64,000 nt of DNA, from positions 806,001 to 870,000 of the forward strand of contig NZ_CP120677.1 of assembly GCF_029537395.1 (NCBI RefSeq). The letters run 5' to 3'. This stretch comes from Tissierella sp. Yu-01. GTDB lineage: Bacteria; Bacillota; Clostridia; Tissierellales; Tissierellaceae. The notes beneath the pieces are model-generated. The model did not search any database. It had not been told where the DNA came from and saw nothing but the letters and a program-made list of their open reading frames with translations. Both the position numbers and the translations under genes were made by a program. Of this stretch, positions 24,873-27,390 are shown piece by piece. Position 1 is the first letter of the stretch. Each line of letters begins with the position of its first letter.

Positions 24873-26126
24873 ATGAAGGTAATAGGTTTTATTACAGAAT
24901 ACAATCCTTTTCATTATGGACATAAGTATCATTATGAAATATCCAAAAAACTGACTGATTCTACACATACAATTGCAGTAATGAGTGGTTCCTTTGTTCA
25001 AAGAGGCGAACCTTCTCTTATTGATAAATGGACTAAGGCTAAAATCGCCATTGATAACGGAATTGATCTGGTGATTGAATTGCCTTTCATTTATTCTGTA
25101 CAAAGTGCGGAATTCTTTGCATATGGTGGTGTTAGTATACTAGACTCCTTAAATATAGTAGATTATATTGCTTTTGGTAGTGAAATTGAAAGTCTAAATC
25201 CTCTACGAAAAATTGCGAGCATACTCAATAATGAACCACCTAAATATAAGGAGTTTTTAAAAGAATATTTAAATAAAGGTAATTCTTTCTCATCCGCTAG
25301 AAGCCAAGCATTATCAGAATATATAAAATTATCTAATCCCAATGATACTACACCGTATGATCTTATTTTAAAACAATCTAATAATATACTTGGTATCGAA
25401 TACCTGAAGTCTTTAAATCGGCTTAATTCAAAAATAAAGCCTATTTCAATTAAACGAAAAGGAAATAACTATAACGACATTGAAATTACAACTAATATAG
25501 CTTCTGCTACTGCCATCAGAAAAAAGATACTTAGTGGCAATTTAGATGGGGTAAAAGACCATATCCCTCCAGCTACTTATTATTATCTGAATAACTTCTA
25601 TAAAAAATACGGAACATTTAATTCTTTAAGTAACTATAATCAAATATTTCAATATATTTTTAGAAGTACCGATAAATCAAAATTCAATCGTATAATGGAT
25701 ATAGAAAATGGACTTGAAAACAGAATAATTAAGGCTAGTTCTGATGAAATTCAAATAGAAGAAATAATAAAATCCGTTACAACTAAGAGGTATCCTTCTA
25801 CTAGAATTAAAAGAATATTAGTTCATCTCCTATCAAATCTTGATAAAGAGACTATTCAAATGATATACAAAACTCCAGTTAATTATATTAGAGTCTTAGG
25901 CTCTAATCAAAAAGGACTTGAAATATTAAGAAATATAAAAAATAATTCTAATGTAAACATAATAACTAAATTTGCTGACCATAAATCTCTTAAAAGCGAG
26001 GAAATAGATTTGATGTTAAGTTATGAAGAAATGGCTACTAATTTGTATTTTTTAGGCATTACTAAAAATAAACCTTTAGTAAATATGGATTATAAATTAT
26101 CACCATATATAACGAAAGATATTTGA
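24873..26126 (+). CDS. tmcAL: tRNA(Met) cytidine acetate ligase TmcAL
   Basis: TmcAL (formerly YlbM) makes N4-acetylcytidine at the wobble base of elongator tRNA-Met, using acetate and ATP via acetyl-AMP. The 417-aa protein has the nucleotidyltransferase start GFITEYNPFHYGHKYH with the HxGH motif, then SGSFVQRGEPSLIDKWTKAK, and a C-terminal part ending KLSPYITKDI. The ATG follows TAGGAGG. It is one of four plus-strand genes and is divergent from ackA; acetate links the two enzymes. ylbJ follows directly. Confidence 0.93.
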   Translation: MKVIGFITEYNPFHYGHKYHYEISKKLTDSTHTIAVMSGSFVQRGEPSLIDKWTKAKIAIDNGIDLVIELPFIYSVQSAEFFAYGGVSILDSLNIVDYIAFGSEIESLNPLRKIASILNNEPPKYKEFLKEYLNKGNSFSSARSQALSEYIKLSNPNDTTPYDLILKQSNNILGIEYLKSLNRLNSKIKPISIKRKGNNYNDIEITTNIASATAIRKKILSGNLDGVKDHIPPATYYYLNNFYKKYGTFNSLSNYNQIFQYIFRSTDKSKFNRIMDIENGLENRIIKASSDEIQIEEIIKSVTTKRYPSTRIKRILVHLLSNLDKETIQMIYKTPVNYIRVLGSNQKGLEILRNIKNNSNVNIITKFADHKSLKSEEIDLMLSYEEMATNLYFLGITKNKPLVNMDYKLSPYITKDI

Positions 26127-26146
26127 GATAAATAAAATCATACCTT
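26119..26146 (+). promoter_or_regulatory. Sigma-E-like promoter of ylbJ/spoVV
   Basis: Plus-strand ATATT (26119-26123), 15-base spacer, CATACCTT (26139-26146), close to the sporulation sigma-E consensus (KMATATT and CATACANT). The -35 lies in the last codons of tmcAL. In B. subtilis spoVV (ylbJ) is a sigma-E gene. No experimental support here. Confidence 0.45.
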
Positions 26147-26186
26147 CTTTCATATACATAAAGTACAGTATATAGAAAGAAGGTAT
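26140..26186 (+). promoter_or_regulatory. Hairpin covering the ylbJ ribosome binding site
   Basis: Arms 26140-26151 and 26175-26186 form a 12-bp perfect stem, extended by ATATAC (26152-26157) with GTATAT (26168-26173). The 3' arm holds AGAAGG, the ribosome binding site of ylbJ. No T-run follows, so this is not a terminator in the plus direction. Confidence 0.65.
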
Positions 26187-26190
26187 TCTC

Positions 26191-27390
26191 ATGTACAATA
26201 AGAAAACAAACAAAATCAATCTATTAGTTACTATAGTGTTACTTATTATCATGTTTCAGGTAGTAAAAAACCCTTCTCAAAGTATAAAAAGCGCAAGGGA
26301 AGGCTTAAACTTATGGTTTAATTTATTGTTGCCTTCACTATTTCCATTTATTTTTATTACAGATTTGTTAGTATCCTTTGGGTTTGTTGATTTTATATCA
26401 AGGTATTTAGAATCATTTATGCGACCTATATTTAATGTACCTGGAATTGGAATATTCCCATTTTCAATGAGTATAATGTCAGGATATCCTGTGGGTGCAA
26501 GGTTAACAGCTAAGCTGAGGGAATTAAATTTGATTTCAAAAACTGTTGGGAATAGACTTATAAGTTTTTCTTCAACTTCTGGACCTTTATTTATACTGGG
26601 TACAGTATTAATCGGTATGGTTGGTGCTCCTAAATTATCAGGTTTAATGATTATTCCACATTATATGGGTGCTCTTTCATTAGGATTGATATTTAGATTC
26701 TATAAAAGAAAGAATTCAACTGAAAATGAAGCTGTTAAAGAAACAAAAGTGAGAAGTGATTTATTTATAGTAGAAATAAAAAATAAATCCATAGGCTCTT
26801 TAATTGCAAAATCAGTTAAAGATAGTATGGAATCCATTATAATCGTAGGGGGTTTTGTTATAATTTATTCAGTAATTATCGATATATTGCTGCTATCTCC
26901 TATTTTTATTTCATTTATTGATGTAATCGCTCATGTAACTTCTATTAACTCAGAAATAATTATGGGAACAATAGCAGGAATAATAGAAATTACAAAAGGT
27001 TGTGAAATTATTTCAAAGCTTGATATTGAAATAATTTCTAAAGTTATACTCCTAAACTTTATAATAGGATGGGGAGGTTTTTCCATACATAGTCAGGCAT
27101 TAAGCTTTATTAGCTCAACTGATATAAGCTCTAAAATATATTTATTATCAAAAGCCTCACATGGGTTGTTATCAGCAATATATACATATATTATCTATAA
27201 AATTGCATATAAGGATTTAATAATTCAAACATATTTAGAACCTATACCAGTTAATGAAATCAATAGCCTATCCTATTGGTTGGAATTGTTTAAAAGCTCT
27301 ACATTTGTTGTAATATCAATTATTGTATTCTTAATTCTTCTAAGTATTTTAACAAATGAAGTAAATTCAACTAAAAGAAAAAGTGCTTAG
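26191..27390 (+). CDS. spoVV: Sporulation integral membrane protein YlbJ (SpoVV)
   Basis: YlbJ/SpoVV belongs to the nucleoside-transporter-like membrane proteins; in B. subtilis it acts in the mother cell and is needed to import dipicolinic acid into the forespore compartment. The 399-aa protein is largely hydrophobic, with about eight predicted membrane segments, and keeps the family stretches GLNLWFNLLLPSLFPFI, SIMSGYPVGARL and FSSTSGPLFILGTV. An AGAAGG site precedes the ATG but lies in a hairpin. It ends in a bidirectional terminator shared with the convergent coiled-coil gene. Confidence 0.9.
   Translation: MYNKKTNKINLLVTIVLLIIMFQVVKNPSQSIKSAREGLNLWFNLLLPSLFPFIFITDLLVSFGFVDFISRYLESFMRPIFNVPGIGIFPFSMSIMSGYPVGARLTAKLRELNLISKTVGNRLISFSSTSGPLFILGTVLIGMVGAPKLSGLMIIPHYMGALSLGLIFRFYKRKNSTENEAVKETKVRSDLFIVEIKNKSIGSLIAKSVKDSMESIIIVGGFVIIYSVIIDILLLSPIFISFIDVIAHVTSINSEIIMGTIAGIIEITKGCEIISKLDIEIISKVILLNFIIGWGGFSIHSQALSFISSTDISSKIYLLSKASHGLLSAIYTYIIYKIAYKDLIIQTYLEPIPVNEINSLSYWLELFKSSTFVVISIIVFLILLSILTNEVNSTKRKSA

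Follow-up and report, generated by a model that had tools for sequence, protein, structure and literature searches.

In insertion sequences, the inverted repeat at the end of the element hides the Shine-Dalgarno (SD) sequence of the transposase gene in RNA that enters from outside. Phage T4 uses a comparable arrangement for gene e (lysozyme), soc, 49 and I-TevI. The SDs of these genes are hidden in hairpins in long early transcripts, whereas RNAs from late promoters start just upstream, lack the 5' strand of the hairpin and are translated; the promoter region itself encodes that 5' strand (PMC3014915). Gene e is the tested model, with a 100-fold difference in lysozyme synthesis (PMC3014915). 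In Bacillus subtilis, a hairpin of 20+ bp has been proposed to block translation of sigG from spoIIG read-through RNA, and RNA started at the sigG promoter is unable to form it (PMC5942855).

Here we analyze the gap upstream of spoVV in a window of 64,000 nucleotides from Tissierella sp. Yu-01. SpoVV functions as a dipicolinate transporter, and in B. subtilis it is a mother-cell protein under SigE control (PMC5629000). We consider it likely that a hairpin in this gap acts as a translational insulator of spoVV, so that read-through RNA would be silent and sigma-E RNA would be translated.

Gene context and hairpin

The tmcAL and spoVV genes are co-directional and separated by 64 nt (Table 1). 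tmcAL is presumed to be the source of read-through RNA into spoVV. We searched the gap for an intrinsic terminator (a GC-rich stem followed by a U tract) and identified no terminator-like site, in agreement with an earlier, sequence-only reading of this DNA. That reading had also described a long hairpin at 26140-26186 with the spoVV ribosome binding site in its 3' arm, and the repeat, the fold and the position of the SD agree with it. The arms (26140-26151 and 26175-26186) pair at 12 of 12 positions, lie 23 nt apart and are prolonged by a bulged upper stem. The fold of 26119-26210 has an energy of -24.1 kcal/mol (z -6.4), and none of 200 shuffles was as good. A search against Rfam (riboswitch and thermosensor families) gave no hit up to E 1.

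Table 1. Features of the tmcAL-spoVV region, in window coordinates.
Feature	Position	Strand	Remarks
tmcAL (YlbM-like tRNA ligase)	24873..26126	+	NCBIfam NF010191, E 4.3e-126
AAATAAA, candidate sigma-E -35	26130..26136	+	Invariant in the genus (four species); weak profile score
5' arm of hairpin (anti-SD)	26140..26157	+	Perfect core 26140-26151; within candidate promoter spacer; conserved CCTTCTTT
CATATACA, candidate sigma-E -10	26151..26158	+	CATATA invariant in the genus; CATAnnnT at the same place in genera g4 and g8
3' arm of hairpin	26169..26186	+	Perfect core 26175-26186
SD AAGAAGG of spoVV	26177..26183	+	Inside 3' arm; ATG at 26191 is 7 nt on
spoVV (ylbJ), mother-cell dipicolinate transporter	26191..27390	+	TIGR02871 spore_ylbJ, E 2.2e-94, above cut-off

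In the predicted structure of the read-through RNA, opening the spoVV SD costs 14.9 kcal/mol. This is the highest value among the 53 starts in the window (median 3.2 kcal/mol) and the third highest among 392 starts in 464 kb of the same genome, where the two higher values belong to the OrfA gene of an insertion sequence (IS) and to a SodC-like gene. The opening energy falls from 14.5 to 5.1 kcal/mol when the RNA begins at 26165 (the SD being kept whole by construction). RNA from 26165 or 26153 folds weakly (-6.2 kcal/mol, z -1.3 and -0.6).

Conservation in related genomes

We identified spoVV in 17 of 28 genomes of the family, exactly those with spoIVA, spoIIIAA and sigG. tmcAL lies directly upstream on the same strand in 15 of the 17, with a gap of 42-68 nt (138 nt in G010). 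The G003 contig begins within the tmcAL-spoVV gap, and in G004 tmcAL is about 1 kb off. The spoVV SD is buried (z of at least 2 relative to shuffled upstream sequence) in 13 of the 16 genomes with the tmcAL order (the 15 verified plus G003). The exceptions are G011, G013 and G021; the pairing has been lost in G021 and is absent in G013, and no terminator was found in either. G010, read by eye, has a terminator-like hairpin plus a weakened SD stem. In G008 (L011:1455-1490), a strong spoVV SD occurs with no ATG, GTG or TTG nearby, and an ATT start is possible. Few genomes of a class-level sample have tmcAL directly upstream of spoVV, and no clear hairpin was seen there.

The sequences of the arm and the SD differ by genus (AAGAAGG, AGGAGG, GGAAAGGAG and GAGGGGG), with complementarity kept. 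Covariation of the stem in relatives, which the sequence-only reading had named as a check, was assessed by an alignment-free swap test, in which the upstream half from each genome was joined to the SD half from other genera. Own arms gave a mean of 15.8 kcal/mol and arms from foreign genera about 9. Only 4 of 720 genus permutations were as good when whole chimaeric leaders were used (35 of 720 with clipped arms), and the pairing is genus-specific. These comparisons indicate that the pairing of arm and SD at spoVV is kept by selection.

The same data bear on other explanations of the repeat. It could be a DNA operator for a regulator of spoVV, with the RNA pairing incidental; SpoIIID, for example, represses spoVV in B. 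subtilis (PMC5629000), and the repeat overlaps the promoter region. However, an operator would keep its sequence, whereas this arm changes with the SD between genera while remaining complementary, and the 3' arm always lies on the SD. We consider an operator very unlikely. Alternatively, the anti-SD could be a relic of an ancestral divergent upstream gene, the SD of which, read backwards, gave the complement. Several other families of the order, as well as G004, have a divergent upstream gene with its SD similarly placed. This history could account for the origin of the pairing at most, and not for its maintenance: within the family, where tmcAL is co-directional, the pairing has tracked changes in the SD, and thus selection would be keeping it now. 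As an explanation of the present hairpin, the relic is extremely improbable.

Terminators are found in place of the hairpin in relatives. Sister family f6 shares the gene order, and 7 of its 10 genomes have a terminator of -10 to -16 kcal/mol between the genes; the spoVV SD is buried (z of at least 2) in 1 of 10. When seven genes were pooled, 47 buried SDs were without a terminator and 4 with one, compared to 33 and 27 for other SDs (Fisher p 1e-5, an optimistic value because the genomes are related and the genes mixed). Across the seven genes, a buried SD and an upstream terminator tend not to occur together.

The hairpin could also serve the 3' end of the tmcAL mRNA, as an RNase barrier or cleavage site, given that it is very stable and directly follows the tmcAL stop codon. 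It has no U tract, however, the SD with which its arm covaries belongs to the downstream gene, and unrelated upstream genes precede the same layout at sigK and spoIIP (see below). There is very little probability that 3'-end protection or processing explains the hairpin.

Promoter and start site

Candidate promoters were scored with a sigma-E profile derived mainly from the spoIIIAA and spoIVA promoters of the family, to which four sites of the B. subtilis consensus were added from general knowledge. The spoIID promoter, which was not assignable, was left out. The sequence-only reading had assigned the sigma-E -10 to CATACCTT (26139-26146), with a start near 26153. This assignment is probably wrong. 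The octamer reads ACAACCTT, CACACCTT-like and AAAACCTT in the three other species of the genus, sharing across the genus being limited to the 3' ACCTT plus single bases, and its profile score, taken with the best available -35, is -3.3.

The four species of the genus all share AAATAAA (26130-26136) and CCTTCTTTCATATA (26143-26156) without change, and the spacing from AAATAAA to CATATA (26151-26156) is 14 nt in every case. The resulting candidate, AAATAAA-N14-CATATACA (26130-26158), has a weak score of 4.1, for which 0.8 sites per kb and strand are expected. The best profile score of the window (8.1) belongs to an overlapping site, TCATATA-N14-TATAGAAA. This site was rejected, as it would leave a leader of about 6 nt with no SD and is not kept in G002 and G003.

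Although the window site itself is weak, comparison with relatives speaks for a sigma-E promoter whose spacer contains the anti-SD arm. Well-matched sites between the arms were identified in genera g4 and g8 (scores 5.7-12.3). The putative spoVV promoters of G006 (TCATATT-N14(gtcctcctataatt)-CATAAAAT, score 11.4) and G010 (TCATAAT-N14(aatctttactctct)-CATACATT, score 12.3) both have the anti-SD inside the spacer. By eye, an anti-SD in the spacer also occurs in families f9 (G051, G196) and f18 (G197), for example agacctc before AATATAAT with the SD GGAGGTCT. There are exceptions to this layout. Genera g6, g9 and g11 have a promoter that closely resembles TCATATT-N13/14-AATATAAT, and their arm sits just upstream of the -35. 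Overall, the arm is within the predicted spacer at spoVV in 10 of 17 genomes, and predicted starts in several relatives are at the edge of the SD. Order-wide (loci L018-L067), TCATATT-N13/14-AATATAAT is found upstream of spoVV in nearly all sporulating genomes, a clear clade-specific form of the sigma-E promoter.

The spoVV start is more likely near 26165 than near 26153. All candidate starts fall downstream of the anti-SD core, so the 5' arm would be lost from each RNA. Because every candidate start removes this arm, the idea of silencing survives the loss of the promoter proposed earlier.

A different outcome would follow if sigma-E RNA began upstream of 26140 and included the whole hairpin, which could then tune or condition translation, either as a damper or as a thermosensor. 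A weak hairpin at the ribosome binding site dampens translation of B. subtilis sigG 2-4-fold (PMC5942855), and there is another weak site within tmcAL (25813-25841, score 4.6). However, the stretch just upstream of the hairpin offers no good sigma-E site (the -10 discarded above included), and the well-matched promoters of g4 and g8 lie between the arms. Further, a stem of about -24 kcal/mol far exceeds known dampers, and no thermosensor family in Rfam was matched. Inclusion of the whole hairpin is thus improbable. Like the operator, the 3' end and the relic, it offers no reason why the arm always has the SD as its partner, or why the two change together.

Possible mechanism

Translational insulation by the hairpin would work as follows. 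In growing cells, polymerase leaving tmcAL would continue into spoVV, because there is no terminator between the genes. In the long RNA, pairing of the anti-SD arm with the ribosome binding site would keep spoVV from being translated. In the sporulating mother cell, sigma-E polymerase would initiate between the two arms. Because the arm is in or upstream of the promoter, the RNA made there would be without the anti-SD and the SD would be free. We infer the read-through, the block to translation and the exact start site from the predicted RNA structures and the genome comparisons.

A switch of this kind had been proposed in the sequence-only reading (SD hidden in read-through RNA, free in sigma-E RNA, no terminator). 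Its core idea is supported by recurrence in relatives, genus-specific covariation of the arms and alternation with terminators, whereas its promoter and start site were not upheld; the switch itself is a prediction.

Similar layouts at other sporulation genes

Base rates were taken from sampled stretches of two genomes (864 kb of G000 and 396 kb of G006), in which we identified 15 strongly hidden starts. These include spoVV (both genomes), spoIIP (G000), sigK (G006), the SodC-like gene and an IS OrfA. CATA occurs between the arms in 7 of the 15, compared to 165 of 920, an enrichment that is only suggestive. A transposase OrfA gene of the window's genome (L219:11638-12201, minus strand) is preceded by an inverted repeat that hides its own SD (20.4 kcal/mol).

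In the genus-swap test, applied to homologues gathered from the family, 1 of 5040 permutations was as good for sigK, 2 of 5040 for the SodC-like gene and 74 of 5040 for spoIIP. The controls were negative (spoIVA 4219, spoIID 3192 and sigG 3047, each of 5040). In nearly every genome, sigK and spoIIP follow a co-directional ORF at a distance of 49-81 nt. The arm is within the predicted spacer of these two genes in 13/15 and 10/14 genomes, respectively.

The SD of sigK (L296-L310, 15 genomes; C1:710252-710944 in the window's genome) has opening energies of 9-20 kcal/mol, and CATATA lies between the arms of its hairpin in nearly all sporulating family members. The -35 is poorly matched, and a conserved GTACTAGCAC-like element upstream of the arm may be an activator site. 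For spoIIP (L280-L295; C1:569365-570387), the predicted promoter is GAATATT-N14(taactccctaatag)-AATATAAT (score 10.0), with the SD complement ACTCCCT in its spacer. An ORF of about 330 codons on the same strand, which may be gpr, ends 63-81 nt before the gene.

The SodC-like (Cu/Zn-superoxide-dismutase-like) gene (L222-L237; C1:388937-389413) is present in the same 17 genomes as spoVV, the family's sporulating members and no others. It looks sigma-K-dependent, as its strong SD hairpin surrounds a sigma-K-like promoter identified by eye (ACACC-N16-CATATTATA). A close co-directional upstream gene is not present in all genomes. The G026 copy of the SodC-like gene is broken by stops.

Some other genes show related features. 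In genus g4 (L175, L178-L180), there is a long hairpin upstream of sigG with a TGAATAA -35-like element in the loop and a free SD, which may be another way to part sigG from sigE read-through. A murA-like gene (L206:13215-14465) and a gene for a Gate-domain membrane protein (L218:14939-16012) have SDs that are hidden in part, and CATAGTAT lies within or close to the hairpin; they may be further cases of sporulation promoters. A gene for a DUF2383 protein was noted as well.

A promoter never transcribes its own spacer, so an anti-SD placed there makes translation depend on local initiation. We lean, by a small degree, towards the view that several mother-cell promoters of this Tissierellia family (those of spoVV, spoIIP, sigK and the SodC-like gene) carry the anti-SD of their own gene between the -35 and the -10, making translation conditional on local initiation. 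The layout would then be a substitute for terminators and a family-wide form of cell-type control. It would show how developmental genes behind housekeeping genes can stay silent without terminators, the promoter spacer serving as a test of RNA origin, and would explain the choice of terminator or hairpin in related families with the same gene order. The SD complement within a promoter spacer is a searchable signature. RNA-seq coverage of such genes during growth would not by itself show that protein is made.

Comparison with known systems

Given the precedents of T4 gene e and sigG, spoVV adds an instance to a principle already known. What appears to be new is that the principle recurs at several sporulation promoters, with the arm placed in the spacer. 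Our literature search, which had most subscription journals outside its reach, found no description of repeated use at mother-cell promoters.

Protection of IS transposase genes resembles the case of spoVV in that the SD is hidden in outside RNA, but it belongs to a mobile element and involves no developmental promoter. The proposed principle at B. subtilis sigG is the same, although the gene, the sigma factor and the cell type are different. The genes that carry a hairpin also differ: in the window's family, sigG has no SD hairpin (SD opening 1-4 kcal/mol), whereas spoVV, sigK, spoIIP and the SodC-like gene have one. The T4 leaders resemble spoVV in the SD hidden in the long RNA (predicted in the case of spoVV), and the short spoVV RNA would, as in T4, lack the 5' strand. 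However, the T4 examples are late genes of a phage, whereas here we find bacterial sporulation genes with putative promoters for mother-cell sigma factors, and an arm that often lies between the -35 and the -10 and covaries across genera.
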